From: a virus
Strand: one strand, 5' to 3'
Virus record (IMG/VR): IMGVR_UViG_3300045303_000377
Span: 1 to 40,833 of that record
DNA length: 40,833 bases
Positions 5,346 through 28,385 of the stretch are shown piece by piece (position 1 is the first letter of the stretch; the number at the start of each line of letters is the position of its first letter). The notes under the pieces are model-generated. The model was not told where the DNA came from. It worked only from the letters and a program-made list of their open reading frames with translations, and made no database searches. The translations under genes were made by a program, and so were the position numbers.

Positions 5346-5354
5346 CGATACTCG
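5346..5354 (+). promoter_or_regulatory. CGATACTCG start-site motif, copy 1
   Basis: Lies 3 nt before the ATG at 5358 and 6 nt after the stop of the sigma-like/zinc ribbon frame. No Shine-Dalgarno separates it from the start. First copy in the window; interpretation is given in the findings. Confidence 0.7.
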
Positions 5355-5357
5355 GCC

Positions 5358-5585
5358 ATGGGTAGCAGCCGCAGCCAAGACCGCCCTGAGCCCGTCACCG
5401 AGGACGAGGTTGTGCGGGCATACGACTTGCTCGCCCAATGCGAGCGCTTCAAGCAGCGGCCGGCCGGCGAGCTCCTGCGCTCGATGATCCCCGGAACCGC
5501 GCTCTGGCGGGAGCGCCGGCGGCTCGTCAAGCGCTACAAGCGCCAGATGCGGCGCGTCCACGAGCTCAAGCGCACCGATGCGTAA
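5358..5585 (+). CDS. Small basic hypothetical protein
   Basis: A 75-residue protein. The start is fixed by the CGATACTCG motif 3 nt before the ATG. TEDEVVRAYDLLAQCERFKQ is a helix; the C-terminal half (WRERRRLVKRYKRQMRRVHE) is very basic and probably binds nucleic acid. It overlaps the next small gene by 8 bases. No family recognised; it lies in the group of small DNA-binding-type proteins that precede the terminase. Confidence 0.7.
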   Translation: MGSSRSQDRPEPVTEDEVVRAYDLLAQCERFKQRPAGELLRSMIPGTALWRERRRLVKRYKRQMRRVHELKRTDA

Positions 5586-5757
5586 CGAGGCCGAGGTGCG
5601 CTCGATCGTCCAGGCCGAGCTCCGCGAGTTCGCGAAGACGCTCTTCGCCGAGGTCCACGACGCGCCGACGACCGTCGAGGGCTACATCCTGCGAGACGAC
5701 CTGATCGCCTGCATCCGGCGCGTCGGCCGAAAGATCGGCATGGGCGGGATGACGTGA
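5578..5757 (+). CDS. Small hypothetical protein (59 residues)
   Basis: Begins with ATG inside the end of the previous gene and ends in GTGA shared with the next start. The 59-residue product (MRNEAEVRSIVQAELREFAK, then AEVHDAPTTVEGYILRDDLI and ACIRRVGRKIG) is helical and charged. The uninterrupted coupling on both sides and GC-rich third positions support that it is translated. Function unknown. Confidence 0.7.
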   Translation: MRNEAEVRSIVQAELREFAKTLFAEVHDAPTTVEGYILRDDLIACIRRVGRKIGMGGMT

Positions 5758-6068
5758 GCAGGGAGAGCCGTCGTCAGGAGCGGAAGGCGGAGCTGATGCT
5801 GCGCGGCGCCTCGGGGGTGCTCGCCGCACTCGCCGAGCCGGACGACGCGGGCAGGCATCTGGCGACGATTGACGACCTCGTCGCCCTGCTTCGCTGCGGG
5901 CGCGGCCAGGTGATCGCGATCGTGGACGAGCTGGAGAGCGCCGGCATGGTGCGCCGCTACGACGACCGCTGCTACCTGGAGCTGACAGAGTCGGGCCTCG
6001 AGACCGTGTCCAAGGCGCGGGCCGAGGTGGCCGCAGCCAAGGCCGACCAGGTCGTCGACGCGGCATGA
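5754..6068 (+). CDS. Winged-helix-like DNA-binding protein
   Basis: A 104-residue protein with a GTG start overlapping the preceding stop. After a basic N-terminus, residues about 25-85 show a winged-helix pattern: ATIDDLVALLRCGRGQVIAI then VDELESAGMVRRYDDRCYLE and LTESGLETVSKAR. This resembles MarR/PadR-like small wings. It directly precedes and overlaps (ATGA) the large terminase, so it may be the small terminase or a regulator of late genes. Confidence 0.65.
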   Translation: MSRESRRQERKAELMLRGASGVLAALAEPDDAGRHLATIDDLVALLRCGRGQVIAIVDELESAGMVRRYDDRCYLELTESGLETVSKARAEVAAAKADQVVDAA

Positions 6069-7885
6069 GCACGAGCCCGCTTCAGGCCGCGCTCCGCTCG
6101 GCGACCCGCGAGCTCGAGCTGGAATGGGCGAGCGAGGAGGAGCGCGAGCTCGAGCTGACCGAGACCGAGCAGTACAGCCGCGATCCGTTCCGCCTGCTCG
6201 AGCTCGGCCACGTCTGGATCTGGTCGAAGTTCGAGCGCCGGCCGGTGCGTCTGGTGCCGTTCCCGACCCAGCGCGAGCTGCTCGAGGCCTGGTTCGACCT
6301 CGAGACGCTGCAGCGCTCGGGCCAGCTGACCTTCCGCAACGTCGCCGACGAGAAGAGCCGGCAGATGGGGGAGACCTGGATCGTTGCCTACGGCCTGCTC
6401 TGGGCGGTGCACTTCCACACCGTCTCGCTCTTCGCCCACCACTTCCGCTCAGCCGAGATCGACGACGGCGGCGAGCGCAACACCTGGAAGAGCCTCTTCG
6501 GGAAGGTGCGCTACATGGACCGGCGGCTGGGCTCGACGAGCGGGCTGCCGGCGCCGCAGCAGCGCGCGTCCGTGCCGGGCCTCGGCAAGCTGATCTTCAG
6601 GCCCAACTCGCGGGAGCCAGCCAAGATCGAGAACGTCGGGCGTGACTCGGTCGTCTACGGCGGCGAGGCCTCGCCTGACCCGGGTCGCGGCGGCTCCTTC
6701 GACGGAGCGGTGATCGACGAGGCCGCCTTCGTGCCCTGGGGCGAGAAGGTGCACGGTGCGCTCGACGAGGCCTGCCCGAACGGCAAGCTCTACCTCTCGA
6801 CCCCGCAGGGCGACGACAACATCCATGCCCGGATCATCGACGAGCGCCCGCGGGGCTGGCGGATCCTGCGCCACCACTGGTCCGAGCACCCGGTCTACCG
6901 CGAGGGCCTGCACGTGGCCGGCGTCGAGCCCGACCAGCAGCCGGACGCCGAGATGCGAGCAAACGCGACGGGCTGCAAGCTCTGTCAGGGCAACCTGGAC
7001 GGCCGCCAGTGGAGTGCCGAGGCGCCGCTTTCGCACCGCTTCCCCGGCCGGCTGACCTCGCCATGGTACGACGAGCGGGTGATCGGCAAGACCGACGAGC
7101 AGGTCGCCCAGGAGCTCGACATCGACCGCGAGCGGGCGCTCACCGGCCGCGTCTACAGCGAGTTCCAGACCGAGATCCACGTCGTCGAGGCGGGCATCGC
7201 CTACGAGCACAACACCTCGCCGCTCGAGCTCGGCTTCGACTACGGGCTCGACTGCACCGCGGTTGTCCTCTGCCAGGACAAGCCCGACGCCTACTGCGTG
7301 ATCGGCGAGCTGGAGATGGGCGACGTCGTCGGCACGACCGCGACTCCCGAGAACGTCTCCGCGGCGCTGCGCCAGGTGCTCGAGCAGATCGGCGTGCCGG
7401 CACGCGAGCTGACCCCCTTCTGGACGAAGAAGCTCTACGCGATCGGCGACCCGGCCGGCCACGGGCGCTCGCTGGAGAGCGGCCGCCCGTTCGTCGAGGC
7501 CTACAGCCGACAGGGCTTCGCGATCGGCAGGCCGCCCCAGCGCCTCTCGTCCCGCGTCGACTTCCGCCTCTCGGCGGTGAAGCGCCTGCTGCTCGGGACC
7601 CCGAAGCCGCTGCGCATCTCCGGGCCCGGCTGTCCGCGCCTGGTCGAGCACATGCGCAACAACCGCTGGCCGACCGACCGCTCCGGCAAGCGCACGCCGA
7701 CGGCGACGCGGCCGCTCGACGACGTCCACAACCACATGCCGAGCGCCCTCGGCTATCTCGCGGTGACGAAGTTCCCGCCGCCGCTCGAGCTCGACCCCAA
7801 CGCGCCGCCACCGCCGGCGCCCTCGCCCGCCGATCGCCGCGACGGGCTGCTCGATCCGGGGCTCTCCTACGGCATGTCGCTGTAG
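6065..7885 (+). CDS. terL: Terminase large subunit
   Basis: A 606-residue packaging motor. The ATPase part has the SRQMGET loop at residues 98-104, where the usual Walker A Lys is Glu103, and Walker B GAVIDEA with Asp218-Glu219. A STPQG coupling motif follows. The C-terminal nuclease shows GFDYGLD (Asp392), IGDPAG (Asp462) and LDDVHNH (Asp552/Asp553), the expected acidic triad of the RNase H-like fold. Length is normal for T4 gp17/Terminase_6 proteins. The loss of the P-loop Lys is shared by some phage terminases that keep the SRQ arginine. ATG start overlaps the upstream gene; the portal follows after 14 nt. Confidence 0.92.
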   Translation: MSTSPLQAALRSATRELELEWASEEERELELTETEQYSRDPFRLLELGHVWIWSKFERRPVRLVPFPTQRELLEAWFDLETLQRSGQLTFRNVADEKSRQMGETWIVAYGLLWAVHFHTVSLFAHHFRSAEIDDGGERNTWKSLFGKVRYMDRRLGSTSGLPAPQQRASVPGLGKLIFRPNSREPAKIENVGRDSVVYGGEASPDPGRGGSFDGAVIDEAAFVPWGEKVHGALDEACPNGKLYLSTPQGDDNIHARIIDERPRGWRILRHHWSEHPVYREGLHVAGVEPDQQPDAEMRANATGCKLCQGNLDGRQWSAEAPLSHRFPGRLTSPWYDERVIGKTDEQVAQELDIDRERALTGRVYSEFQTEIHVVEAGIAYEHNTSPLELGFDYGLDCTAVVLCQDKPDAYCVIGELEMGDVVGTTATPENVSAALRQVLEQIGVPARELTPFWTKKLYAIGDPAGHGRSLESGRPFVEAYSRQGFAIGRPPQRLSSRVDFRLSAVKRLLLGTPKPLRISGPGCPRLVEHMRNNRWPTDRSGKRTPTATRPLDDVHNHMPSALGYLAVTKFPPPLELDPNAPPPPAPSPADRRDGLLDPGLSYGMSL

Positions 7886-7887
7886 GG

Positions 7888-7896
7888 CGATACTCG
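7888..7896 (+). promoter_or_regulatory. CGATACTCG start-site motif, copy 2
   Basis: Begins 2 nt after the terminase stop and ends 3 nt before the portal GTG at 7900. No purine-rich ribosome site is present in the 14-nt gap. Confidence 0.75.
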
Positions 7897-7899
7897 GCC

Positions 7900-9384
7900 G
7901 TGCGACTGCTCCCGAGCTTCCTCCGCCGCGAGAACGCCGCCCTGCCGGGTGGCGCCGGCGACCCGCCCAAGGGTGAGGCGGGCTCCGATCGCGAGGACTG
8001 GCTCGGCGACCTCCAGGGCGGCGGGCCCGACGTCAACCCTGAGCTGAGCGGCTCGGCTAAGTTCGTCGTCTACGACGAGATGCGCAAGACCGACGCCTCG
8101 ATCAAGGCGCTGCTGCTCTTCCTGAAGCTGCCCGTGCGCTCGGCGGCCTGGGGCCTGAACCCGAAGACCGAGGAGCCTGAGGCGCAGGTGATCTGCGACT
8201 TCGTCGACTGGAACCTCGGGGTCGAAAGCGGCGAAGGGCAGATGGACCTCAGCTGGGACGAGTCGCTCCAGCAGGGCATGCAGATGCTCGACTTCGGCCC
8301 GATGTTCGAGGAGCTCGTCTGGGGCGACTCGGTCAGCTGGACCGACGGCGACGGCGACCAGCATCTGGTGCGGCCGCTCGTTCGCCTCGCGCCGCGGATG
8401 CCGCGCACGATCGACAAGGTCGTGATCCGCAAGGGCCAGCTGCTCGAGCTGCGCCAGGACATCCCGAACACTCAGCCGATTCCCGGCGAGAAGCTTTCCT
8501 ACATGGTCTTCGAGCGGGAAGGCGGACGCTGGGACGGCGTCTCGCTGCTGCGCCCGACCTGGGGGCCGTGGCGACTGAAGAAGGCGCTGATGATCGCGGC
8601 CGGGATCGGCTGGGATCGCTTCGCCGCCGGCTTGCCGGTCGTCTGGCACCCCGACACGCCGGCGGGCGAGCAGAAGGCGCGCCAGATCGGCCGCGACGTC
8701 CGCCACCACGAGCGTGGCTACGTCCACTTCCCGATCCCCGAAGGCTTGAAGAAGGAAGAGGCCCAGTGGGAACTCGAGATCAAGAATGGCGCGACGACGC
8801 TCGCCGACCCGGTCCCGCTTCTGAACTGGTACTCGGGCCAGATCCTCGAAGCGGGCCTCGCCCACTTCTCCAACCTCGGCAACAGCGCGCACGGCGCGCG
8901 AGCGGTCGCCGAGACGCAGATCGACCCCTTCTTCCTGGCCGTGCAGACGCTCGCCAACTATGTCCGCCGCGAGCGCTCTCGACAGGTGATCAAGCGGATC
9001 GTCGAGGTGAACTTCGGGGCCGAGGCCGCCGATCGCTGGACGCCGACGCTGACCGTTTCGAAGATCCAGGCGCGCTCGATCTCGACGATCTCCCAGGCGA
9101 TCTACGACCTCAATCAGGCCGGACTCACCTTCACCGATCGCGAGGCCCAGGACGACATCCGCGAGCTGCTCGGCCTGCCGAAGCTCCCCGAGGACGATCT
9201 CCTCGCTCAGGGGATCGACCCCGCGCAGCTGCAGCAGCTGCTCGCCTCAGCCGGGCTCGACCCGGAGACCCTCGCCGCGATCCTCGCCAAGCTGCCGCCC
9301 GAGGTCGGGGTCGCGCGCAACAAGGCCCCGGGCTACCAGGGCAACGGAGCCGGGCTCGAAGGCGCCGGCCTGCAGGGAGGTTAG
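7900..9384 (+). CDS. Portal protein, DUF935/Mu gp29-like
   Basis: A 494-residue protein. The start is the GTG that follows the repeated motif; the open frame extends far upstream, but that part overlaps terminase. Typical portal features are VVYDEMRKTDASIKALLLFL, PVRSAAWGLNP, the central GMQMLDFGPMFEELVW, LVRLAPRMPRTI, and the DUF935-type LLNWYSGQILEAGLAHFSNLG followed by GARAVAETQIDPFF. The C-terminal 60 residues (PKLPEDDLLAQGIDPAQLQQ) are helical and then Gly-rich. It forms the dodecameric DNA channel of the head. Confidence 0.88.
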   Translation: MRLLPSFLRRENAALPGGAGDPPKGEAGSDREDWLGDLQGGGPDVNPELSGSAKFVVYDEMRKTDASIKALLLFLKLPVRSAAWGLNPKTEEPEAQVICDFVDWNLGVESGEGQMDLSWDESLQQGMQMLDFGPMFEELVWGDSVSWTDGDGDQHLVRPLVRLAPRMPRTIDKVVIRKGQLLELRQDIPNTQPIPGEKLSYMVFEREGGRWDGVSLLRPTWGPWRLKKALMIAAGIGWDRFAAGLPVVWHPDTPAGEQKARQIGRDVRHHERGYVHFPIPEGLKKEEAQWELEIKNGATTLADPVPLLNWYSGQILEAGLAHFSNLGNSAHGARAVAETQIDPFFLAVQTLANYVRRERSRQVIKRIVEVNFGAEAADRWTPTLTVSKIQARSISTISQAIYDLNQAGLTFTDREAQDDIRELLGLPKLPEDDLLAQGIDPAQLQQLLASAGLDPETLAAILAKLPPEVGVARNKAPGYQGNGAGLEGAGLQGG

Positions 9385-9391
9385 GCCCCGC

Positions 9392-9400
9392 CGATACTCG
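9392..9400 (+). promoter_or_regulatory. CGATACTCG start-site motif, copy 3
   Basis: Lies in the 19-nt gap between the portal stop and the GTG at 9404, again exactly 3 nt before the start. Confidence 0.75.
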
Positions 9401-9403
9401 GCC

Positions 9404-9787
9404 GTGAAGGTCGAAGTGCTCGTCACGCAGTGGAGCGCCGAGGGGCAGACGCTCGCCGGCGGCGTCCACGAGATCGGTCCGGGCGAGTGCCCGTGCGGCG
9501 CCAAGCACAAGTCGACGAAGGCGTTCCTCTCGCTCGTCGCCGCGGCCGAGGACGCCGGCTCGATCAAGGTCAGCGCCTCGAAGGCCGAGCGCGCCGAGCT
9601 GAAGGGCCACGTCCAGACCCAGGCCGACGGCGAGAAGGCCTACGCCGAGGCCCAGCGCGACGGCCGCTGGCACGAGGGCAACTACGACGCCTTCATGGCC
9701 GACGTCGAGGCTGGCCTGCGCGACCCGGACGAGTTCGGCGTGATGCCCGACCGCGAGATCTACGTGAACGAGCGGAAGGCGGGCTGA
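9404..9787 (+). CDS. Hypothetical protein after portal
   Basis: A 127-residue protein, GTG start placed by the motif. The N-terminal 40 residues (KVEVLVTQWSAEGQTLAGG, HEIGPGECPCGAKHK) are beta-rich with a CPCG pair; the remainder is helical and acidic (AEDAGSIKVSASKAERAELK). It may be a small head-associated protein. No family recognised. Confidence 0.7.
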   Translation: MKVEVLVTQWSAEGQTLAGGVHEIGPGECPCGAKHKSTKAFLSLVAAAEDAGSIKVSASKAERAELKGHVQTQADGEKAYAEAQRDGRWHEGNYDAFMADVEAGLRDPDEFGVMPDREIYVNERKAG

Positions 9788-9788
9788 C

Positions 9789-12447: not shown

Positions 12448-12456
12448 GGTCGCCTC

Positions 12457-14196
12457 ATGGCGACCGTCTCGCGTACATACGTCTTCGCCGCTAACGCCGA
12501 GGGCTTCACAGACCAGGGCAACTCGGCAAGTCTGACGGCGGCGTGGGTCGCCGGAGACGGCAACCCGCCCGGCTCGCTGGAATGGCTCGCTGTCGCCGCT
12601 GCGACGGAGTTCGCAAGGGACACGCTCGAAGCGTGGACGGCGAAGTTTCCCGGCATCCCGGCCGGCGCGATCATCACGCAGGTCCAAGTCACCGCCTGGG
12701 ACGAGCTCTGCTGGACGGGCGGCGGCCCGACGCGCCGCGTCCGCTTCCGCATCGTTGACAGCACGAACACGGTCGTCCACTCGGCGGGCGACCTATTCGA
12801 CACGACCTCAAACGCGACGACGAGCTCCGGCGGCACTCCCGTTGCTATGGGCGCTGGGACGGCTCGAGCAGTAGACGCCTCATTCCAGCCTGCGGCGACA
12901 CAAATCAAGTTCGAGATCGTCGTCGATTCGACCGGCACGATCGACCTCGAGCAGGACAACATCGCGGTCACGGTCACGTACACGACTGCGGCTGCAGGCG
13001 CCGGCCCGGCACCGAACCCGATCCTGCAGATGCTCAACCAGCGCGGCCGGCTACGCGCGCTGGCGCTGCAACTGATCCGACCGAGGCCTTCGCTGGCGCC
13101 AGTGGGCACGCCCGTCTCGAGTAGCGTCGACGCGCCGTTCGAGGCGTTGCAGGCCATCGCGCAGAGCGGCAGCGACCCGCTCGATGCGGCCCAGAGCCTT
13201 GCGACGAGCGCAAGCGACCCGCTCGAGGCGACGCAGGGGCTCTCGAACGCGAGCTCCGACCCGCTCGAGGAGAACCAGGGCGTCGCCGCGGCCGGCGTCG
13301 ATCCGCTGGAGGCGCAGCAGGGAATCGCAGCGCCGCTGAGCGATCCCTTCGAGGCGGTCCAGGGCGGGATCGTCTCGACGTCGCTCGTGCCCTTCGAGGC
13401 TCTGCAGGGCATCGTCCAGTCGCTCGTCGACGCGATCGAGGCGGCGGGCGGGGTCGCGTCGAGCGGGGTCGATCCGTTCGAGGCGGTGAGGGCAATCGCG
13501 TCCTCGCTGGTCGACCCGTTCGAGTCGAGCACCGGCGTCGCGAGCAGCGGGAGCGATGCGTACGAGTCGGCCCAGGGACTCGCTACGACCATCCTCGATG
13601 CCTTCGAGTCGCTCGCCGGCGTCAAGACCAGCAGCGGGGATCCTCTCGAAGCGCTGGCCGGAGTCGCGTCGGGGCTGAGCGATCCCTACGAGGCCGATGG
13701 TGCAGCGCTCGCGGCCGTCAGCAGCAGCTCCTCGGCGCCGTTCGAATCCTTGAAGGCGATCGCAGCGAGCCTTGGCCTTCCGCTCGAATCCTTGGCCGGC
13801 GTCACGGTCACGAGCGCAGACGCCTTCGAGTCCCTCGCTGGGGTCGCCGCCGTGGCGCTCGTCCCGCTCGAGAGCGCCGGCGGCGTGCGGCAGACAATCG
13901 CCGTGCCCTTCGAGGCACCAGCCGGAGTCGCCTCGAGCGCGGCCGCCCAGCTCGAGAGCCTGGCCGCCGTCCTCCGCGTCTCGGGCGCGCCCTTCGAGGC
14001 GACCTCGATCTTCGTCTACCTTCGTGTCGGCGAGCTGCTCGTCGAGCTGGCCGTGCTGCGTCCCGAGGGCCGCTTCGGCCGCGTTGCTCCCGGCGCTCCG
14101 ATACTCGCCCTGAGGCCTATCGCGCGGCTTCGTAGCACCGATGCGCCGGCGGATCTCGGCGCGGTTGAGCCGGAGGCGAGGATCACGAAGACCTGA
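12457..14196 (+). CDS. Repeat-rich putative fibre protein
   Basis: A 579-residue protein. Residues 1-180 look like a beta-sandwich (YVFAANAEGFTDQGNSASLT, RRVRFRIVDSTNTVVHS, IKFEIVVDSTGTIDLEQDN). From residue 224 to about 516 there are about 21 tandem copies of a 14-residue unit with consensus SDPFEALQGIAxSG; the Glu in the (P/A)(F/L/Y)E(A/S) core is almost invariant (one copy has Asp). The C-terminal 65 residues form a separate domain (VYLRVGELLVELAVLRP). Repeats of this style occur in phage structural proteins; I infer a long rod or solenoid in the virion. Function is not proven. Confidence 0.7.
   Translation: MATVSRTYVFAANAEGFTDQGNSASLTAAWVAGDGNPPGSLEWLAVAAATEFARDTLEAWTAKFPGIPAGAIITQVQVTAWDELCWTGGGPTRRVRFRIVDSTNTVVHSAGDLFDTTSNATTSSGGTPVAMGAGTARAVDASFQPAATQIKFEIVVDSTGTIDLEQDNIAVTVTYTTAAAGAGPAPNPILQMLNQRGRLRALALQLIRPRPSLAPVGTPVSSSVDAPFEALQAIAQSGSDPLDAAQSLATSASDPLEATQGLSNASSDPLEENQGVAAAGVDPLEAQQGIAAPLSDPFEAVQGGIVSTSLVPFEALQGIVQSLVDAIEAAGGVASSGVDPFEAVRAIASSLVDPFESSTGVASSGSDAYESAQGLATTILDAFESLAGVKTSSGDPLEALAGVASGLSDPYEADGAALAAVSSSSSAPFESLKAIAASLGLPLESLAGVTVTSADAFESLAGVAAVALVPLESAGGVRQTIAVPFEAPAGVASSAAAQLESLAAVLRVSGAPFEATSIFVYLRVGELLVELAVLRPEGRFGRVAPGAPILALRPIARLRSTDAPADLGAVEPEARITKT
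13126..14004 (+). repeat. About 21 tandem 42-bp/14-residue repeats
   Basis: The unit is degenerate at DNA level but regular in protein length: most copies are exactly 14 residues, with two longer units. Variable positions alternate D/V/L at position 2, and the preceding Ser-Gly or Ser-Ser pair marks the boundary. The high divergence between copies indicates an old repeat kept by protein structure rather than a recent slippage product. Confidence 0.8.
14099..14107 (+). promoter_or_regulatory. CGATACTCG motif, copy 4 (inside a gene)
   Basis: Lies inside the last 100 bases of the repeat-protein gene. A CTG, in frame with that gene, stands at the +3 position where other copies have ATG or GTG. 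It is 89 nt before the ATG at 14196, so it could drive that gene with a short leader, or be a chance or decayed copy. Confidence 0.45.
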
Positions 14197-15359: not shown

Positions 15360-16154
15360 CTAGAGACCGTCCTTGCCGATTTCGACCACGGTGGTCGGAT
15401 CGGTCAAGACGGACAGGTCGCTCAGCGGCGTGAACTGGCTCCACAGCAGTGTCTGATCCTGATGCAGCTGGAACGGTCCTGACCGCGCCTGCGCGATCGA
15501 CAGAACGGGCTCGCTGCTGTCGCTGAACACCGCGCCCCAGGTCGGGTCGAAGTAGTGCCACGCGCCACCGTAGAACGTCTCGACCGCGATGTGGTTGTTG
15601 GCGCCGTGGTAGAACTGGACGCTGCGCACGGGAAGCCCGAACTGCCGGACGATGGCGGCGAAGGTGAAGGACGCCGTGCCGCAGATCCCAGCTTGTGTCT
15701 CCAGTGCCATCTCGGCGCTCCAGGGGATCGCCATCGAGTTGAGCACGCGGTAGCCGTAGACCTCCGCGAGCACATGGCCGACGACGTAGTTCATGGCGGC
15801 GGTGGAGATCACGTAGCCGTCCGAGGCCGCAGGGTCGAGCCGCTCGATGTAGGCGCGCTCCGCCTGGATCGTGCTGACCGCGCGGGAAAGCTCGGTCGGA
15901 GCGTTCTTGTAGTAGTCGCGCTCGCCGGTCATGTCGCGCAGGTTCGACTGAAGACTGGTGACGGTGGCTGAGAGGCTGGCGGTCTCCTGCACGAGGTTGT
16001 CGTGCTCCGTTCGGAACTGGCCGTTCGAGATTTGGAGCGCGGCTACCTGCTTTCGCAGCGCCACGATCTGGCGATGCTGCTTCGGGGTGGCCTGGGCGGT
16101 GGTCGCGACGATGAGCGCGAGGGCGGCGATCAGGGTGAGGGCGGCGATCTTCAT
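15360..16154 (-). CDS. Secreted transglutaminase-like protein with coiled coil (cargo gene)
   Basis: A 264-residue protein; the start at 16154 is chosen for its strong ribosome site (AAGGAGAAGG) and signal peptide, although the frame is open further upstream. Residues 1-22 are a signal peptide ending near AQA; 27-100 a probable coiled coil. A transglutaminase/papain-like core follows with candidate triad Cys158 (AGICGTASF), His188 (NNHIAVE) and Asp203 (YFDPTWG). Such enzymes hydrolyse or cross-link amide bonds outside the membrane. It opposes all late genes and is coupled (CAATGA) to a ribbon-helix-helix gene, as expected of a lysogen-expressed 'moron'. Confidence 0.8.
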   Translation of the reverse strand: MKIAALTLIAALALIVATTAQATPKQHRQIVALRKQVAALQISNGQFRTEHDNLVQETASLSATVTSLQSNLRDMTGERDYYKNAPTELSRAVSTIQAERAYIERLDPAASDGYVISTAAMNYVVGHVLAEVYGYRVLNSMAIPWSAEMALETQAGICGTASFTFAAIVRQFGLPVRSVQFYHGANNHIAVETFYGGAWHYFDPTWGAVFSDSSEPVLSIAQARSGPFQLHQDQTLLWSQFTPLSDLSVLTDPTTVVEIGKDGL

Positions 16155-16313: not shown

Positions 16314-16333
16314 ACCGGCGCCGCGATACTCAA
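16306..16333 (-). promoter_or_regulatory. Predicted promoter of the minus-strand cargo cassette
   Basis: On the minus strand TTGAGT (16328-16333) and TATTAC (16306-16311) are separated by 16 bp and lie 20 bp from the ATG at 16285. This is the most sigma-70-like sequence in an otherwise GC-rich region. The -35 box overlaps the CGATACTCA motif of the divergent late gene, so the two promoters would compete. Confidence 0.45.
16324..16332 (+). promoter_or_regulatory. CGATACTCA start-site motif, copy 5 (variant)
   Basis: Differs from the other copies only in its last base. It stands 3 nt before the GTG at 16336 in the divergent intergenic space, where no upstream + strand gene exists, so coupling from an upstream gene cannot supply translation here. 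Confidence 0.7.
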
Positions 16334-16335: not shown

Positions 16336-16800
16336 GTGCCAGACCAGCTGCGCATCACCACCCACGGCTTCGACGAGGCCGATCTACGCATCAAGCGCGT
16401 CGGCCTCCTCCTCTCGGACCTGCGCTCGTTCTGGCCGCTGGTCGTGCCGATCTTCATCGGCTGGATGCGCTCGCAATTTGCGAGCGAGGGGACCTTCTCC
16501 GGCGAGCGCTGGTCGCCGCTCTCGACTCCGTATGCGACGTGGAAGTCGATCCATTACCCGGGCAAGCCGATTCTCCAGGCCACCGGCGCGCTTCGTCGCG
16601 CGGCCTCGATGCCCACCCGCCGCGCGACGCCCCGCAGCCTGACCCTGACGATCCACGACCCGAAGATCTCCTACCACCAGGAGGGCACCGACAAGATGCC
16701 CGCCCGGCCGCTGATCTTCTCCACGCTCCCGCCGATCGCCCGACGCGAGCTTCAGCTGGTGGCCGAGCGCTACGTGCGGGAGGTCATCAGCCGTGCCTGA
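16336..16800 (+). CDS. Virion morphogenesis protein, Mu gpG/Phage_tail_S-like
   Basis: A 154-residue protein with GTG start set by the motif. Family marks are WPLVVPIFIGWMRSQFASEG, GERWSPLSTPYATWK, ILQATGALRRA and the C-terminal YHQEGTDKMPARPLIF with its MPARP motif. Members of PF05069 complete the head-tail joint or tail. It is the first + strand gene after the minus-strand cassette, so its expression cannot depend on read-through translation. Confidence 0.85.
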   Translation: MPDQLRITTHGFDEADLRIKRVGLLLSDLRSFWPLVVPIFIGWMRSQFASEGTFSGERWSPLSTPYATWKSIHYPGKPILQATGALRRAASMPTRRATPRSLTLTIHDPKISYHQEGTDKMPARPLIFSTLPPIARRELQLVAERYVREVISRA

Positions 16801-16803: not shown

Positions 16804-16812
16804 CGATACTCG
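16804..16812 (+). promoter_or_regulatory. CGATACTCG start-site motif, copy 6
   Basis: In the 15-nt gap after the gpG-like gene; 3 nt (GCG) separate it from the GTG at 16816. Confidence 0.75.
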
Positions 16813-17341: not shown

Positions 17342-17350
17342 CGATACTCG
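17342..17350 (+). promoter_or_regulatory. CGATACTCG start-site motif, copy 7
   Basis: In the 19-nt gap before the protease gene. The sequence GTGTG follows; the GTG at 17354 has the usual 3-nt spacing and keeps the frame of the gene. Confidence 0.75.
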
Positions 17351-17353: not shown

Positions 17354-18568
17354 GTGCCCGGTGAGCTTGCGACCATCGACCTGCCCGGCGTCGAGATCAT
17401 GTCGGTCGGCGGCCCGGTGCACGCGATCGGCTCGCCGCCTGAGGGCGACCACTGGACGCAAGACCACCTGCGCCAGATGGCCGACGCGGCGAAGGAGCTC
17501 GAAGGCGAGCTGCGCCCGCCGAACAAGATCGGTCACTCCTCAAAGCAGAAGCTGCTCGCGAACTCGGGCCTGACCGACGGCGAGATGCCGGCGGCCGGCT
17601 GGCTCGAGAACGTCCGCCTCTCCGAGGACGGCAACAAGCTGCTCGCCGACGTGAAGAAGGTGCCGGCCAAGCTCGGCAGCCTGATCCAGGCGGGCGCCTG
17701 GCGCACACGCTCGGCCGAGCTCTCGCGGGTCACCAGCCAGAAGACCGGCAAGAGCTACGACTGGGTCGTTACCGGCCTCGCCTGGCTCGGCGGCAAGCGG
17801 CCCTCGATCAGCACCCTCGACGACGTCGTGCGCTTGTACGAGTCCGACGACGACCGCGTCGTGCGGCGCTGCCTCGCCCAGGAAGAGAACGAGGACTCCT
17901 ACTCGAAGGAGGCCGTCGACGCTCTGCGCGAGAACGCCTTCGACGACGCGGCCGGAAAGATCGCACGCGCTGCCGATACTCGCGCGATGGCCGAGATCAC
18001 CCTCACCGAGGAGAAGGCGCGGGAACTCGCGACGAGCCTCGGTGTCGAGGGCGAGATCGACGCCGACAAGCTGATCGAAGGCGCCAAGGCGCGCGTCGAG
18101 GACAAGAGCCTCAGCGCCGAGCAGCAGGCCGAGCTGGCCAAGAGCCTCGGAATCGAGGGCGAGGTCACGCCGGAGAAGCTGCTCGAGGCCGCGAAGGCCA
18201 AGCCCGAGCCGAAGCGCGAGAACTCGGCCGACGACGACGAGCTGAAGCGCAAGCTCGAAGAGGTCGAGAAGGAGGCCAAGCAGGCGACCGAGGATCTCCG
18301 CCTCGAGCGCCGGCGGAACTTCGTCGAGGACGAGCTGATCGCCACCGCCAAGATCGCGCCGGGCGACCGGAAGAAGTGGGAGGACCGCTACGACAAGGAC
18401 GCCGAGCTGGCGCGCTCGTTCGCAGAAGACCTTCAGCCCGACCCCGTCCTGCTCAGGGAGCTCGGCTCCGACGAAGAGGGCACCGAGAGCGAGGTCGAGG
18501 AGCGGCGCAAGCTCGAAGAGGCCGACTCGTCCGCCCGACTCGGGATCCCGAAAGAGGAGCTGATCTGA
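17354..18568 (+). CDS. Capsid maturation protease with C-terminal scaffold, Mu I-like
   Basis: A 404-residue protein. Residues 1-165 match the Mu-like I protease family: NKIGHSSKQ, DGEMPAAGWLENVRLSEDG, KLLADVKKVPAKLGSLIQAG, AWRTRSAELSRV and TGLAWLGGKRPSISTL. The His in GHS and the Ser in RSAEL are candidate active-site residues. From residue 212 the protein is a highly charged helical scaffold (EEKARELATSLGVEGEIDAD, DDELKRKLEEVEKEAKQATE). In Mu the scaffold Z is made from an internal start in I; the same arrangement is predicted here. Confidence 0.85.
   Translation: MPGELATIDLPGVEIMSVGGPVHAIGSPPEGDHWTQDHLRQMADAAKELEGELRPPNKIGHSSKQKLLANSGLTDGEMPAAGWLENVRLSEDGNKLLADVKKVPAKLGSLIQAGAWRTRSAELSRVTSQKTGKSYDWVVTGLAWLGGKRPSISTLDDVVRLYESDDDRVVRRCLAQEENEDSYSKEAVDALRENAFDDAAGKIARAADTRAMAEITLTEEKARELATSLGVEGEIDADKLIEGAKARVEDKSLSAEQQAELAKSLGIEGEVTPEKLLEAAKAKPEPKRENSADDDELKRKLEEVEKEAKQATEDLRLERRRNFVEDELIATAKIAPGDRKKWEDRYDKDAELARSFAEDLQPDPVLLRELGSDEEGTESEVEERRKLEEADSSARLGIPKEELI
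17974..17982 (+). promoter_or_regulatory. CGATACTCG motif, copy 8 (before internal scaffold start)
   Basis: Lies within the protease gene, 4 nt before an in-frame ATG at 17987. It is the only copy with a 4-nt gap. In the protease frame it is read as part of ADTRAM. Confidence 0.7.
17987..18568 (+). CDS. Nested scaffold protein (internal start in the protease gene)
   Basis: An in-frame ATG preceded by the repeated start-site motif would give a 193-residue product, MAEITLTEEKAREL onward, that is exactly the charged scaffold part without the protease. Two related half-repeats (ATSLGVEGEIDADKLIEGAK and AKSLGIEGEVTPEKLLEAAK) precede a long coiled coil. Phage Mu Z and lambda Nu3 are precedents for nested scaffolds. 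The separate product is inferred. Confidence 0.65.
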   Translation: MAEITLTEEKARELATSLGVEGEIDADKLIEGAKARVEDKSLSAEQQAELAKSLGIEGEVTPEKLLEAAKAKPEPKRENSADDDELKRKLEEVEKEAKQATEDLRLERRRNFVEDELIATAKIAPGDRKKWEDRYDKDAELARSFAEDLQPDPVLLRELGSDEEGTESEVEERRKLEEADSSARLGIPKEELI

Positions 18569-18968: not shown

Positions 18969-19913
18969 ATGCCGACCTATCCACTTCAGGGCGGTTCCGG
19001 TTCGCAGCTGACCGTCGAGGCGCTGCTCAAGCAGCCTCGCCGGATTTCGCGCGATCTCGTCAACCTCGTCTCCAAGCGCCTGGTCGCCGACCGACTCTTC
19101 GTGCGGGGCTCGGCCGAGCAGGTCGCCGGCGGCGCGATGCAGTACCAGCTCGCCGAGTCGATCTACCTCGACACCGATCCGACCGAGGAGATCGCAGCCG
19201 GCGCCGACTGGCCGCGCTCGACCTGGACCGAGGCGATCCTCTCCGAGGTCGTCCACCAGTACGGGCTCGAGGTGCTGATCACGAACCTGATGGTCAGGCG
19301 CCACCAGATGGATCAGGTGACGCGCGCCGAGCGCAAGCTGGCCAACAACCTCGTCCGCTTCATCGACACGAAGGCCTTCGCGCTGCTCGAGAACCTCGCC
19401 AAGGGCCAGAACACGCAGGCCTCCGCAGCGGCCTGGTCGATCGCCGGCACGGACATCATCGCCGAGGTCGTCAAGGCCCAGGAGTTCATCGAGACGGCCG
19501 ACAACGGCTACAGCGGCTTCGAGGGCGCGACGATGGTGCTCAACACGAGCAAGCGCGACGATCTCCTGAACAACACCGTCCTGCGCGCCGCACTGCCGCG
19601 CGAGGATCGCACCGGCCAGATCCAGACCGGGATGATGGCGCCCTTCCTGGGCCTGAAGGAGATCCTCTTCAGCTCGCGGGTCACCGCGACGAAGGCGATC
19701 ATCATCGACACGGGCGTCGCCGGCACGATCGCCGACGAGCCGCCGGATCCCTCCGAGGGCTTCGTCGGCTACGACCCGGGCCCGGGCTTCTCGCCGATCT
19801 ACGTCAAGGTCTACGAGCACCCGGAGTCGAAGGGGAAGGTCGTCGCGGCCGGCCGCTGGCCCGCCATGGCGCTGACCGACCCGAAGGCCATCACCGTCAT
19901 CACGGGGATCTAG
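18969..19913 (+). CDS. Major capsid protein
   Basis: A 314-residue protein, ATG directly after the decoration stop. The HK97-fold pattern is visible: long N-terminal helical and extended region (LVNLVSKRLVADRLFVRGSA), P-domain helix ERKLANNLVRFIDTKAFALL, and the A-domain strands near VVKAQEFIETADNGYSGFEG and MVLNTSKRDDLLNN. The C-terminal VKVYEHPESKGKVVAAGRWP and AITVITGI are typical of capsid proteins of this Mu/actinophage group. Position between decoration and adaptor genes supports the call. Confidence 0.88.
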   Translation: MPTYPLQGGSGSQLTVEALLKQPRRISRDLVNLVSKRLVADRLFVRGSAEQVAGGAMQYQLAESIYLDTDPTEEIAAGADWPRSTWTEAILSEVVHQYGLEVLITNLMVRRHQMDQVTRAERKLANNLVRFIDTKAFALLENLAKGQNTQASAAAWSIAGTDIIAEVVKAQEFIETADNGYSGFEGATMVLNTSKRDDLLNNTVLRAALPREDRTGQIQTGMMAPFLGLKEILFSSRVTATKAIIIDTGVAGTIADEPPDPSEGFVGYDPGPGFSPIYVKVYEHPESKGKVVAAGRWPAMALTDPKAITVITGI

Positions 19914-20660: not shown

Positions 20661-20802
20661 GCCGCGTGTATCGGGTTGTAACCGCGCCCTCACGCTCGGC
20701 GAGCGGGCGAACGCCCCGATAAGTCATCGCGCGGCGCCAGACGCGGAGAACGGCTCCTAGCGCGTCGGCCGGAAACCTGCCTGCCGCCGCCGATACTCGC
20801 GC
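20661..20802 (+). other. 142-nt intergenic region with hairpin
   Basis: One of the longest non-coding stretches in the structural region. It contains GGTT-GT-AACC at 20674-20683, a hairpin at 20685-20709 (CGCCC and GCTC pairing with GAGC and GGGCG around a GGC loop), and the CGATACTCG motif at its end. No U-rich tract follows the hairpin. It may hold a processing site or GC-rich terminator between the head and tail transcripts; nothing else was recognised. Confidence 0.4.
20791..20799 (+). promoter_or_regulatory. CGATACTCG start-site motif, copy 9
   Basis: Ends 3 nt before the GTG at 20803. Preceded by 130 nt of non-coding sequence, so this copy is free of coding constraints and is the best one for testing promoter function. 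Confidence 0.75.
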
Positions 20803-22506: not shown

Positions 22507-22510
22507 GCCG

Positions 22511-23158: not shown

Positions 23159-23433
23159 AGACCCTGCTCACGCTCGGCCGCGTCAACCGCTGGCCGCCCG
23201 GCTACTGGCGCGATCTGCTCTGGGACGACTTCGTCCTCCACGTCTGGCACCGGAGCGAGGAGATCGCGCGGCGCGAGGAGGCCGGTGAAGACGACGACGG
23301 AATCCGGCGTGCACCGCTTGGTGGCTTCGGCCCGCCGAGCCGCGACGCCCTCGCCTCGATTCCCTGGAGCGGCGAGGGCGTTGACCCGCTCGAAGAGCTG
23401 TTCGAGCGCGAGGGCTTCGAGGGCGCCGAATGA
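22511..23433 (+). CDS. Tail assembly chaperone, frameshifted long form (gpGT-like)
   Basis: A -1 slip at 23131-23137 joins the first 209 codons of the short form to a downstream frame read from 23137 to the stop at 23431-23433, giving about 307 residues. The added part reads RLERALVETLLTLGRVNRWP then PGYWRDLLWDDFVLHVWHRS and ends in an acidic tail; this is the conserved second chaperone domain and has no start codon of its own. The stop overlaps the tape measure ATG (ATGA). Confidence 0.85.
23131..23137 (+). other. -1 ribosomal frameshift slippery heptamer CCCTTTC
   Basis: In the short-form frame the codons are CCT TTC preceded by C, so both tRNAs can re-pair one base back as CCC TTT. This is the classic X XXY YYZ form and lies about 20 nt before the zero-frame stop. 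The shifted frame continues straight into the conserved chaperone domain. Confidence 0.85.
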
Positions 23434-26400
23434 CCTCCACCGAGCGCGTTGAGCTTCGCTTCGACGGCGTCTCCCGCGGGGCGACCAAGGCCGCCCACGA
23501 CACGCGCACGGCCCTCCGCCAGGTCGGCGACGAGTCTGACCGCACGAGCAAGCGAGCGAGCAAGGGCTTCCGCGAATCGCAGAAGGACCTCGACCGCTTC
23601 TCGCGCGGCGCGATCGCCGGTTCCGGTGCGTTTCGCAGCTTCGGCCGCTCGATCGCCTTCGCCTCGGCCTCGTTCCTCGGCGGCGTCGGCTTTATCGCCA
23701 TCGTGCGCCAGTCGATCTCGCGGGCCTCGGACCTGCACGAGGAGCTCAACAAGGTAGACGTCGTCTTCCGGGACTCCGCGCGCTCGGTAAAGGCGTGGTC
23801 GAAGGACTCGGCCTTCGGCTTCGGCCTCGCCCGCTCGGAGGCGCTCAAGTTCGCGGGCACGTTCGGCAACCTCCTGACGCCGATGGGGATCGCCCCCGAT
23901 CTGGCGGCCACGATGAGCAAGCGCCTGGTCGAGCTCGCCGGCGACATGGCCTCGTTCAACAACGCGAGCCCGGAGGAAGTGCTGCTCGCTCTCAACAGCG
24001 GCCTGACGGGCATGGTTCGGCCCCTGCGGCGCTACGGCGTCTTCCTCGACCAGGACCGCATCGCGGCCGAAGCGCTCCGTCTGGGCGTCGTGAAGGCCAA
24101 CGTCGATATGTCGAAGACGGGCGACGCCGCGACGAAGGTCGAGATCGCCACGGCCAAGCTGACGGTCGCGCGAAAGAAGTACGGCGAGGGCACGACGCAG
24201 GTCGCCGCGGCCGAGGTCGCGCTCCACAGCGCCGAGCGCGCTCTTAGCGCCGAGCTCGGCGGGCGCGTGCCGAAGCTGACGGCCGCCCAGAAGGCCCAGG
24301 CGACCTACGCGATCATCCTCAAGGACACCGCGAACGCCCAGGGTGACTTTGCGCGCACGAGCGACGGGCTCGCGAACCAGCAGCGGATCCTCCGCGCCGA
24401 GCTCATCAACATCCAAGAGGAGATCGGCACCGCGCTCATGCCGACGATCCTGCGCCTGACGCGCGGGCTCACCGGCTACCTCCAGACGCTCGAGTCGGGC
24501 GGCTCGCGCCATGAGGCGTTCATCAAGCTCGTCCACCAGGTCGGCGACGTGCTCCGGAGCGTCTACGGCGTCGTCAGGACGTTCGCGACCGGCCTCAACA
24601 CCGTCGCGCGCGTCATGGGCGGCTGGGGCAACGCCTTCTCGCTCGTCCTCTCGCTCTTCCTCGCTAAGAAGTTCATCGCGCTCGCCGCGGCGATCCGTAA
24701 CACCCGGATCGCGATGTTCCTTCTCGGCCAGCAGGCGGCCGCAAGCGGGACAGCCCAGACGTGGGCCGCGTTCGGGACGGGCGGGTCGATCGCGAGGAAG
24801 GTGGACGGATCGACCGGCCGCGTGGTGGCGCTCCGATCGGCGCTGCGGAGCCTGGCGACGCTCGGCCTCATCACGATCGCGATCGAGCTCCTGATCCACC
24901 GGAAGCTCGTCGGCGACGTTCTCGAAAGCATCGTCGGAGACACGCCGGCGACTGGGATCCCGACCGCCGGCCAGAAGAGCGCCCAGGACTGGGCGCGCTA
25001 CCTCAAGGCGCACGGCTACTCGAGGCAGGGCGCGCATACGCGGATGGTTCAGGTCGCGATCTTCTCGGAGCAGGAGATCACGGCCGCGCTCGACAAGGTC
25101 TACGGCACGACGGGCGCGAAGGGCGGCACCCCGGGCGAGCCGGTCGTCACCGGGCCGCGCCAGAGTGGCAAGCGCGACCAGGCCGCGTTCATCGCAGTCA
25201 CCGCCGCGCGCTCTCCTGGCGCTGGCGGGACGGGCTTCCACCTTCCGGGCGAGCGCAAGCCCTACGACTGCTCGGCCTTCGTCCAGGCGGTCTACGCGCA
25301 CGCCGGGATCACGATCGGCTCGAACACCTACGAGCAGGTCAAGCAGGGCCGCCACGTCGATCGCTCGCAGCTTCGCCCAGGCGACCTGATCTTTATGAAC
25401 TTCCCCGGCGAGCGCTCGCCGGGGCACGTCGGGATCTACGTCGGCGGCGGGCAGATGGTGCACGACCACGGCGCGAGCGGAGGCGTCGAGGCCCAGGCCG
25501 TTCCGTGGAACGCCGTCGTCGATACGCGCACCTACGCCGCCGGCAAGGGCAACCCGGCGATCGTCGCGCCCGCCGATCCGGGCGCTGGGGCAGGAGGCGA
25601 CGGAGGTCTCACGGTTGGCGCGACGCCGAAGGCTCGAAAGAAGACCGACAAGCCGGATCCGGAGGAGCTCCAGGCGGCGCGTCGTACCGCCGCCTTCGTC
25701 GAGCGGGCAGTCGGCCGCGTCGTCTCGCCGACTCTGCGGAAGAACCTCCGCAAGCGCGCCGACGAGCTCAACGAGGCGCTCCAGCACGTCGCGAACGAGG
25801 GCGAGCTCCGGAAACTCCAGAAGCGGCTCGACAGCCTCACCCATGACCTCGAGGAGGCCGTCAAGCTCGGCCAGGCGACGACGATCGCACGCAAGAGCGC
25901 GGCCGCACTCGCGACGCAGATCAGCCGGCTTCCCGAGGCGCTGGCGAAGGACGTCCGTGCGAAGATGAAGGTGGTCCAGAAGGAGCTCGCCGACGTCACG
26001 ACCGCCGGCCAGCTGGCGCGGGTCCGCAAGCAGATGGACGCGATCGCGAAGGCCATCGCCGACGCGATCGACAAGCTCCGCATGATCGTCGGGCAGCGGC
26101 AGGACGCCTTCGGGACGGCGTTCGGGCGCGTGGCCGACAAGATGCTCTCGATCTTCGACGCGCAGACGCAGAAGTTGATCGATAGGGCTCGCGCGCGCGT
26201 CGCTGAGTTCGGCTTCGAGATCGGCGTCGGGGAAGAGACGCCGGCCGAGCGACGGCAGCGCGAGCGCGACGCAGTCAAGACCGCCGAGGATATGGCGAAG
26301 CGGCTCGCCGACGCGCAAGCCGCCGTCTCGAAGGCCGCGGCCGAGCTCCAGCATCCCGACTTTTTCGACAGTCGCACCAACGACGAGCGAGCGCAGGCGC

Positions 26401-27134
26401 TCATCGACGCGCAGAAGGATCTCCAGGACGCCCTCTACGACGCCGAGACCGCCGGCCTGGAGAAGCAGGCCGAGGCCGAGCGCAAGGCCGCAGACGCCGC
26501 CCTGGCGGCCGAGCAGAAGCGGATCCAGGACGAGCGCGACCTCCTGCGCGAGCGCTTCCAGAACCGGATCAGCGAGATCGAGACGAACCTCGCGAACGAG
26601 ACGATCACGGCGAAAGAGGCGCGCGACCAGCTTCTCGCGCTGATGGCTGACCCGGCCTACCAGACGAGCTTCGGCGATATCGGCGACCTGATGGGCGCGG
26701 CCTTCGCGACAGGTTTCTCCGATGCGATCGACGGGCTCACGACCGCGTTGAACGCGCTGATCGACGCGCTCAACGAGCTCCTCAAGGCGACCGGCAAGAC
26801 GCCCGTCCGACACGCGGAGCCCGCGACGCGCTCGCCCGGCCGTCCGAGGTCGCCGATCGGGCACCCGGCGATGGCGCGCGGCGGCACCGTGCCGGGCCAG
26901 TACGTCGGACGCTCCGACACGATCGTCGGCCACCTGACCCCCGGCGAGGAGGTCATCGAACGCTCGACCGCGACGGCGCTCCGGCGCTTCCTCGCGCAGC
27001 AGGGCTCCGGCGGCGGTGGCTCGAGCTACGGCCCGATCTACGTCCTCGGCACGACCCCGCGTGAGGTCGCCGCGGCGCTCGCGAAGCTCACCGGGCCCGA
27101 GCTCGACCGCCAGATCGGCTATCGGCTCGACTGA
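23430..27134 (+). CDS. Tape measure protein with embedded NlpC/P60 peptidase
   Basis: A 1234-residue protein. The N-terminal 400 residues have tape-measure features (FDGVSRGATKAAHDTRTALR, ASDLHEELNKVDVVFRDSAR, FAGTFGNLLTPMGIAPDLAA) and long helices; hydrophobic stretches lie near residues 405-440 and 475-490. A peptidase domain at about 570-700 shows Cys614 (PYDCSAFVQ), His666 (PGHVGIYVG) and His678, the NlpC/P60 triad. Long charged coiled coils follow to about 1120. It sets tail length, and the peptidase may cut peptidoglycan during DNA entry. ATG overlaps the chaperone stop. Confidence 0.9.
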   Translation: MTSTERVELRFDGVSRGATKAAHDTRTALRQVGDESDRTSKRASKGFRESQKDLDRFSRGAIAGSGAFRSFGRSIAFASASFLGGVGFIAIVRQSISRASDLHEELNKVDVVFRDSARSVKAWSKDSAFGFGLARSEALKFAGTFGNLLTPMGIAPDLAATMSKRLVELAGDMASFNNASPEEVLLALNSGLTGMVRPLRRYGVFLDQDRIAAEALRLGVVKANVDMSKTGDAATKVEIATAKLTVARKKYGEGTTQVAAAEVALHSAERALSAELGGRVPKLTAAQKAQATYAIILKDTANAQGDFARTSDGLANQQRILRAELINIQEEIGTALMPTILRLTRGLTGYLQTLESGGSRHEAFIKLVHQVGDVLRSVYGVVRTFATGLNTVARVMGGWGNAFSLVLSLFLAKKFIALAAAIRNTRIAMFLLGQQAAASGTAQTWAAFGTGGSIARKVDGSTGRVVALRSALRSLATLGLITIAIELLIHRKLVGDVLESIVGDTPATGIPTAGQKSAQDWARYLKAHGYSRQGAHTRMVQVAIFSEQEITAALDKVYGTTGAKGGTPGEPVVTGPRQSGKRDQAAFIAVTAARSPGAGGTGFHLPGERKPYDCSAFVQAVYAHAGITIGSNTYEQVKQGRHVDRSQLRPGDLIFMNFPGERSPGHVGIYVGGGQMVHDHGASGGVEAQAVPWNAVVDTRTYAAGKGNPAIVAPADPGAGAGGDGGLTVGATPKARKKTDKPDPEELQAARRTAAFVERAVGRVVSPTLRKNLRKRADELNEALQHVANEGELRKLQKRLDSLTHDLEEAVKLGQATTIARKSAAALATQISRLPEALAKDVRAKMKVVQKELADVTTAGQLARVRKQMDAIAKAIADAIDKLRMIVGQRQDAFGTAFGRVADKMLSIFDAQTQKLIDRARARVAEFGFEIGVGEETPAERRQRERDAVKTAEDMAKRLADAQAAVSKAAAELQHPDFFDSRTNDERAQALIDAQKDLQDALYDAETAGLEKQAEAERKAADAALAAEQKRIQDERDLLRERFQNRISEIETNLANETITAKEARDQLLALMADPAYQTSFGDIGDLMGAAFATGFSDAIDGLTTALNALIDALNELLKATGKTPVRHAEPATRSPGRPRSPIGHPAMARGGTVPGQYVGRSDTIVGHLTPGEEVIERSTATALRRFLAQQGSGGGGSSYGPIYVLGTTPREVAAALAKLTGPELDRQIGYRLD

Positions 27135-28369
27135 TGGCGAGCGTCGCGCGCGCTTCCTACCGCTGCTTCGTCTCCTGGGTCGCCTACAACCTCGGTGCTT
27201 TCACGATCGGCTTCTCGCAGATCGGCGGCACCGACCTGCTCGGCACGTCGCCGGCCGATCTCTCGTTCACCGGGCCTTACGACGACGTCTCGCCGAAGCT
27301 CAGCCGCGTGACGTTCAACCGCGGCCGCGACGACGGTCTCTCGATTGTCGGAGCCGGCGAGGCGACCGTCGATCTGCGCGATCCCGATGGGCGCTTCAAC
27401 CCGTCGAACCCCGCGAGCCCGCTCGCCGGCGTGCTCGACGATCGCCTCCATCCGATCATGCTCCAGGGCGTCATCGGGAGCCCCCTGACCGTCGCCTTCC
27501 CGCTCTTCTACGGATGGGTCCGGCGACTCGTCTGGGAGCCGCAGGGCCGCAAGGGCACGGCGCAGCTCGAGTGCGTCGACCTCTTCTACCGCCTCGCCCG
27601 GGCCTTCCCGGTCATCGCCTCGACCGGGCCGACGACGACCGGCGCGGCGATCGGGAAGATCCTCGACGCGGTCGGGCTCCCCGACCCGGCGGCGCGCAGT
27701 CTCGACGTCGGCGACTCGATCCTCGACTTCGCCGCGGACGGCTCGAAGAGCGCGCTCGACCTGATCGGCGACCTGCTCGAGGCCGAGCGCGGAATCTTCT
27801 TTGTCGCCGGCGACGGCCAGGCGACCTACCGCTCGCGACTCACCCGCCAGACCGGCGCGGTCGTCGGGGCGATCGCCAACTCGATGCGAGCGATCGGGCC
27901 CGGCTCCGACTTCGACCAGGCCCGGACACGCGTCACCGTCACCCGCACGCAGAGCGGCTACACCGCCGTCAAGACTGCGCCCTCGCTCATCACCGGGCGG
28001 CTCGGCCTGATCGACCTCCCGGCGATCGCGACGCCCTTCCTCTTGAACGACGGGCAGGCCGACTCGCTCGCCTCCTGGCTGCTCTCGCAGGTCGCAACGA
28101 CGCGCCAGCCGATCTACGGCCTGACGATCGACAACCGCGAGCAGGCCCTCCTCGATCAGATCCTCGCGCGCGAGATCGGCGACCGGATCACCGTCACCGA
28201 GGCCGAGGGCGGCACGACGGGCACGTTCGTCATCGAGCGCCTCGCGCACGACGTCGACGTCAATCGCGGCCGCCACTCAGCGGCCTACCTCCTGACGAAG
28301 GCCGACACGGCAACCCCGTTCCGGATCGGCTCATCGCTGATCGGCGGCACCGACGTTCTCGTCTACTAG
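27134..28369 (+). CDS. Tail hub/baseplate protein
   Basis: A 411-residue protein; the ATG overlaps the tape measure stop. The N-terminal domain (AFTIGFSQIGGTDLLG, VTFNRGRDDGLSIVGAGEAT, VDLRDPDGRFNPSNPASPLA) is the pattern of actinophage distal or hub tail proteins. FYGWVRRLVWEPQGRKGTAQ and LECVDLFYRLARAF continue it, and DRITVTEAEGGTTGTFVIER is at the C-terminus. The phrase IGGTD occurs at both ends (residues about 30 and 405). Probably the tail hub attaching fibres. Confidence 0.75.
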   Translation: MASVARASYRCFVSWVAYNLGAFTIGFSQIGGTDLLGTSPADLSFTGPYDDVSPKLSRVTFNRGRDDGLSIVGAGEATVDLRDPDGRFNPSNPASPLAGVLDDRLHPIMLQGVIGSPLTVAFPLFYGWVRRLVWEPQGRKGTAQLECVDLFYRLARAFPVIASTGPTTTGAAIGKILDAVGLPDPAARSLDVGDSILDFAADGSKSALDLIGDLLEAERGIFFVAGDGQATYRSRLTRQTGAVVGAIANSMRAIGPGSDFDQARTRVTVTRTQSGYTAVKTAPSLITGRLGLIDLPAIATPFLLNDGQADSLASWLLSQVATTRQPIYGLTIDNREQALLDQILAREIGDRITVTEAEGGTTGTFVIERLAHDVDVNRGRHSAAYLLTKADTATPFRIGSSLIGGTDVLVY

Positions 28370-28376
28370 CTGCGGC

Positions 28377-28385
28377 CGATACTCG
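28377..28385 (+). promoter_or_regulatory. CGATACTCG start-site motif, copy 10
   Basis: Spans the 19-nt gap after the tail hub stop; 3 nt separate it from a GTG at 28389, which opens an 8-codon leader instead of the main gene. Confidence 0.75.

Follow-up and report, generated by a model that had tools for sequence, protein, structure and literature searches.

The virus record IMGVR_UViG_3300045303_000377 of IMG/VR (40,833 bases, 70% GC; the whole of this stretch is called the window here) contains ten copies of the word CGATACTCG among its virion genes, most of them immediately before start codons. This word would be the -10-type element of late promoters, with the core (G)(C)CGANNNT, and we consider it likely that a phage sigma factor encoded at 4599-5339, just upstream of the array, steers the host RNA polymerase to these -10-only promoters, giving mRNAs which are leaderless or have leaders of 1–4 nt.

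Nine of the ten copies are exact and the copy at 16324 ends in A. All are on the + strand, as recorded in the initial annotation of this DNA, and GATACT was found in the window exclusively at these sites (n = 10), with none on the - strand. The spacing is also as that annotation described, with exactly 3 nt between the word and an ATG or GTG at eight copies, 4 nt at 17974, and the copy at 14099 in a gene end. The bare 9-mer occurs 9 times versus 0.26 expected under a second-order model. The shuffled-sequence count which the annotation had proposed gave 7 matches to CGATACTCG-NNN-RTG, a number not reached in any of 100 dinucleotide-shuffled sequences (mean 0.02). When one mismatch was tolerated, CGATACTCG was barely enriched (25 vs 17.4 expected), and thus the signal consists of the exact word and its position rather than of a loose match.

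Thirteen related records (G001 to G013, with the near-duplicate pairs G001/G002 and G008/G011) were obtained by searching viral contigs with the capsid, protease and TerL. The motif search in related phages suggested in the annotation showed that each record has one fixed version of the word, that these lineage-specific versions recur at orthologous starts, and that they change as a lineage-wide set: CGATACTCG (GATACT class) in the window, G001 and G008/G011, CGAAYCTAG (GAAYCT class) in G003, G005, G009, G010 and G012, CGATAGTAG in G006 and G013, and CGACATTC in G004 and G007. Overall, the classes GATACT, GAAYCT, GATAGT and GACATT are found at the same genes in about a dozen related lineages. 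In the window and 12 relatives (13 records), all 98 sites located lie on the + strand; the sites were gathered with class patterns, so that invariance within a pattern is partly due to selection, and the word classes themselves were derived from unbiased k-mer enrichment. G012 and G013 are 43-kb records in which the motif sites all fall within one continuous stretch, corresponding to the late region where this was identified. No comparable enriched word was detected in two AT-rich outgroups (TerL identity 25–32%). Neither phage records near-identical to the window nor, in scans of genome contigs with the capsid and protease, a cellular or prophage relative were found. The taxon number in the identifier of G013 (IMGVR_UViG_2831922129_000001) resembles that of an isolate genome, from which this record may derive.

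The core given above is shared by all 98 sites. In a logo of 75 sites aligned on the first C, C1, G2, A3 and T7 are invariant and G-1 and C0 are strong, with the invariance of A3 and T7 partly fixed by the class patterns used to pick the sites and the start being a predicted rather than a mapped one. A3 is followed by three class-specific bases and then by T7, C/A8, G9 and C12, with G13 predominant at the next position. A3 and T7 appear to correspond to both key bases of a -10 box. No -35 element was found at fixed or variable distance, no column upstream of position -1 being conserved in this logo, and the words enriched upstream mostly represent the stop codon of the gene before; the annotation had likewise noted neither a clear Shine-Dalgarno sequence nor a common -35, and neither is present. 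The downstream start normally lies 12–16 nt from the first C; among 95 unique sites, the distance to the start codon is 12 nt for 49, 13 nt for 19 and 14–16 nt for 10. In G006, this distance floats from 12 to 16 nt with the word unchanged.

Not all sites precede a long open reading frame (ORF). In relatives, the word is found before tRNA-Met genes, whose 5' ends (ARAGORN) fall at position 13 in G012 and G013, 12 in G005, where the gene was confirmed by Rfam, and 17 in G006; tRNA-like sequence also begins at position 13 in G009 and G010. Since a tRNA needs no ribosome signal, these sites argue that the word is a promoter. Three sites without the usual long ORF (window 28377, G001 19214 and G011 10835) open ORFs of 8–10 codons, the stop codons of which overlap the next start as RTGA; since such a mini-ORF opens at 28377, that copy does not mark the long gene's own start. 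A "coupled" small-ORF form is known among mycobacterial leaderless mRNAs (PMC4633059). Site 14099 of the window is orthologous to G001 19214 and G008 2681/G011 10835, where the word serves the gene orthologous to the window gene at 14196. Every relative covering the protease gene has the site within it at a corresponding place, in frame and before an internal ATG or GTG, whatever motif class it belongs to.

The candidate sigma gene was found in 10 of the 10 phages covering the region, i.e. the window and nine related records (homologues L009, L010, L011, L013, L025, L026, L045, L046 and L047), but not in the two AT-rich outgroups, which lack the motif; no homologues were found in deposited phage genomes. 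Pfam Sigma70_r2 matched the homologues in G001 and G003 with expected values (E) of 0.0011 and 0.019, respectively, under the curated cut-off, and the nested +1-frame ORF gave weak matches to Sigma70_r4 (E 0.0046) and Sigma70_r4_2 (E 0.0042) in the window and to Sigma70_r4_2 (E 0.0012) in G003. AlphaFold models of the region 2 and region 4 proteins had predicted local distance difference test (pLDDT) scores of 73 and 80. With the region 2 model, Foldseek returned no significant match (E above 3), and sigma region 2 chains led the search, namely 4lup, 5or5, T4 gp55 (7d7c) and WhiG (7lq4), with sigmaE also among them; a weak search with the region 4 model placed region 4 of Mycobacterium tuberculosis SigL and Escherichia coli sigmaE among LuxR-type and other helix-turn-helix (HTH) proteins.

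The region 4 frame is offset by exactly +1 in 10 of the 10 phages, with a linker of 46–127 nt, and conservation within the region 4 block is higher in the +1 frame (identity 0.38 vs 0.25 in frame 0). The codon aligned to ATG 4966 is by reading NTG (ATG, TTG, GTG or CTG) in nine phages and AAG in G007. Conservation of this NTG favours a separate region 4 protein, whereas the fixed offset favours a +1 frameshift product, for which no slippery heptamer common to the homologues was found. The frame 0 protein has a zinc-ribbon-like C-terminus in at least 5 of the 10 phages. G009 (L025) and G012 (L045) have TerL proteins 94% identical but sigma regions 2 only 41% identical, which suggests that the sigma gene was exchanged or changes very fast inside one motif class.

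The motif and its position, its covariation with lineage, the tRNA and protease-internal sites and the conservation of the sigma-like gene can be read directly from the sequences, and we infer from them that RNA starts at the motif, late in infection, and that the sigma factor reads it. The early genes would be read first by the host enzyme; the product of 4599-5339, with region 4 supplied from the overlapping +1 frame, would then redirect the host core polymerase to the single element, without a -35. RNA would begin about 6 nt past the conserved T, at position 13 from the first C of CCGANNNT. Since this position is the R of the RTG start codon at most sites, the mRNA would be leaderless there, with leaders of 1–4 nt elsewhere. 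In the late block, most genes lacking the word overlap or adjoin their upstream neighbour. Their translation would occur by coupling, and each copy of the word would accordingly head a short late operon; most word-bearing genes are preceded by a gap. By analogy with lambda C/Nu3, the copy within the protease gene would yield a separate nested scaffold mRNA, and in relatives another copy would give tRNA-Met. The annotation's proposal, in which promoters specific to the phage yield leaderless mRNAs throughout the virion genes, is thereby supported through the orthologous recurrence of the sites, their lineage-wide change, the kept A and T, the tRNA sites and the absence of a Shine-Dalgarno sequence and of a -35, with the 5' ends predicted; the candidate sigma gene, the putative internal scaffold start, the predicted 1–4 nt leaders in some phages and the coupled mini-ORFs at three sites go beyond it. 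For the fullest version of the proposal, namely that a two-frame sigma (a +1 frameshift fusion or a pair of nested proteins) drives the -10-only late promoters of a phage group, and that nearly all operon-head late mRNAs, the internal scaffold mRNA and the tRNA start exactly at their first functional base or no more than a few bases away from it, we put the chances at about even.

Several observations weigh against this proposal: i) about a fifth of the sites (21 of 95) have no purine at position 13; ii) in G004 and G007 the start codons are 13–16 nt on (once 19), which predicts leaders of 1–4 nt or longer; iii) the element has G rather than T at -12, and the distance from the -10 to position 13 is one base shorter than the usual sigma-70 spacing; iv) at site 14099 an RTG is missing at the expected place; v) the sigma assignments are individually weak, with Pfam E-values of about 0.001–0.02 below cut-offs and a Foldseek E for region 2 that exceeds 3, and the region 4 model also resembles other HTH proteins; and vi) although sigma region 2 identity is higher within a motif class, so is TerL identity, so that the covariation of sigma and motif is not independent of phylogeny.

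The alternative that deserves most attention, though we regard it as unlikely, is that these are genuine promoters used by a housekeeping or alternative sigma factor of the host without a phage sigma, with the sigma-like gene having another role and the motif classes tracking the hosts. In high-GC bacteria, many leaderless mRNAs arise from TANNNT boxes (PMC3160421), the A and T of which are retained here, the hosts of the relatives may differ, and the sigma assignment is weak, as said. However, host TANNNT boxes lack the fixed, lineage-specific middle bases, and G replaces T at -12; furthermore, the sigma-like gene is present in every relative covering its region, the outgroups without it are also without the motif, and confinement of the motif to one gene block fits a dedicated factor.

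The near-constant distance to start codons, the single orientation and the location at operon-head genes would also suit a translation-initiation element that the ribosome or an RNA-binding protein recognises in the mRNA, like the similarly placed start-associated sequences (SAS) of cluster K mycobacteriophages (PMC3203893). This is very improbable, because the same word precedes tRNA genes and mini-ORFs of 8–10 codons, the start spacing floats by 4 nt in G006, the word has no anti-Shine-Dalgarno complementarity and differs between related phages, and SAS carry AGGAG and sit in the non-structural half of the genome. Least probable of all, to the point of being nearly negligible, is that the word serves a phage DNA-binding protein as an operator and is no promoter; asymmetric sites scattered among genes in one orientation do resemble the stoperators of L5, but an operator needs no exact register to start codons or tRNA 5' ends, the bases that never vary match a -10 element, dyad symmetry is absent, and the repressor region of the window has its own TTCTAG repeats.

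Single-element promoters read by a phage sigma factor have been described. In phiEco32, according to the available part of PMC8948821, the phage sigma gp36 directs host polymerase to single-element middle and late promoters with starts 6–8 nt downstream, and gp47 of phage 7-11, a distant gp36 relative, uses a different promoter sequence. The present system is similar in having one conserved element with a nearby (predicted) downstream start. It differs in that the phiEco32 element is tAATGTAtA and that gp36 is described in that part of the paper as lacking region 4 homology, whereas a region 4-like domain lies in an overlapping frame here; leaderless start codons are not reported there for phiEco32. 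T4 late promoters also lack a -35, and their sigma is split into gp55, which is sigma-2-like, and gp33, a sigma-4 mimic (PMC2988020); here the sigma 2-like and 4-like domains are in different frames in 10 of the 10 phages, as either two proteins or a frameshift product. The T4 genes, however, are far apart, their promoters are clamp-activated and gp33 recognises no DNA sequence, whereas here one locus with +1-offset frames is involved; no clamp gene was among the family hits obtained, with no search aimed specifically at clamps. Nothing beyond the weak fold match to 7d7c points to kinship with T4. As kinship is not demonstrated, the system is not classed with T4 or phiEco32.

Middle and late transcripts of the Thermus phage P23-45 are reportedly leaderless. 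The window portal has a Pfam P23-45_portal_barrel match, and the P23-45 middle/late promoters are likewise of an extended -10, -35-independent class (PMC7403470), but they use host sigma-A remodelled by gp39 and no phage sigma. Published bacterial leaderless signals of the TANNNT type start some 12 nt upstream of the initiation codon (PMC3160421), and actinobacterial leaderless genes share with these phages both a -10-like box about 11–12 nt before RTG (11 nt for GATACT in the window) and RTGA-coupled small ORFs (PMC3160421, PMC4633059); unlike them, the phage sites have G at -12 and fixed phage-specific middle bases and form a dedicated late set including tRNA genes. SAS are likewise short asymmetric words right before start codons in one orientation, but consist of the 13-bp GGGATAGGAGCCC with a Shine-Dalgarno core, lie by non-structural genes and have a proposed translational role (PMC3203893); membership was rejected, as the word has no AGGAG and a different sequence. 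The resemblance of GCCGATA to the -10 of FliA/WhiG-type promoters (GCCGATAA with a TAAA-like -35), noted in the annotation, was not substantiated, since no TAAA occurs at a fixed distance, it is present in 2 upstream windows, and no upstream column is conserved.

If the proposal is true, the promoter code of a group of uncultured high-GC phages can be read from the sequence alone, their late programme is based on leaderless translation, and they offer natural sets of diverged sigma/promoter pairs in which to study how -10 specificity changes. A review of T4 asked why the split halves of late sigma are always separate, separately regulated genes (PMC2988020); with both halves in one locus in overlapping frames, this question would become testable in a new system.

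Table 1. Putative promoter elements, sigma-like ORFs and other genes of the window.
Feature	Position	Strand	Remarks
Frame 0 candidate late sigma factor with region 2 (residues ~35–120) and C-terminal zinc-ribbon-like CxxC domain	4599..5339	+	Pfam, Foldseek, conservation
Sigma region 4-like HTH ORF, 84 aa	4966..5220	+	Nested in +1 frame of 4599-5339; Pfam, model
Putative late promoter -10 element	5346..5354	+	Predicted transcription start site (TSS) ATG 5358
TerL	6065-7885		Family search
Putative late promoter -10 element	7888..7896	+	Predicted TSS GTG 7900, portal gene; orthologous sites in other relatives
Portal	7900-9384		Family search; Pfam P23-45_portal_barrel
Putative late promoter -10 element	9392..9400	+	Predicted TSS GTG 9404
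Promoter-like copy, 3' end of structural gene	14099..14107	+	No RTG at predicted TSS
Putative late promoter -10 element, CGATACTCA	16324..16332	+	Predicted TSS GTG 16336, neck gene
Neck	16336-16800		Family search
Putative late promoter -10 element	16804..16812	+	Predicted TSS GTG 16816
Putative late promoter -10 element	17342..17350	+	Predicted TSS GTG 17354, head maturation protease
Protease	17354-18568		Family search
Putative internal late promoter -10 element, within protease gene	17974..17982	+	Predicted 1-nt leader, in-frame ATG 17987
In-frame internal ORF, 193 aa, probable scaffold-like C-terminal protease product	17987..18568	+	Analogy with lambda C/Nu3
Major capsid	18969-19913		Family search
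Putative late promoter -10 element	20791..20799	+	Predicted TSS GTG 20803
Tape measure	23430-27134		Family search
Putative late promoter -10 element	28377..28385	+	Predicted TSS GTG 28389
8-codon mini-ORF, predicted leaderless	28389..28415	+	TGA overlaps ATG 28412 of next gene (ATGA coupling)
Endolysin	29479-30282		Family search
Repressor/Cro-like divergent pair	31728-32087, 32174-32401	-, +	Right of late block

Family searches also placed replication-initiation and TerS-like genes to the left of the late block and SbcC/SbcD-like genes to its right. A minus-strand gene at 15360-16154, with a transglutaminase-like match, lies amid the + strand genes of the late block, directly ahead of site 16324. 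Between the divergent repressor-like and Cro-like genes (32104-32175) there are several TTCTAG repeats, which are probably operators. No integrase was among the family hits obtained for the window proteins; the product of 33072-34319 matches the Pfam Gp3-like recombination directionality factor. Finally, 38565-39380 encodes a protein of 271 aa in which WDAA/RDAA repeats, specified by multiple copies of the word GTGGGACGC, form a long run.

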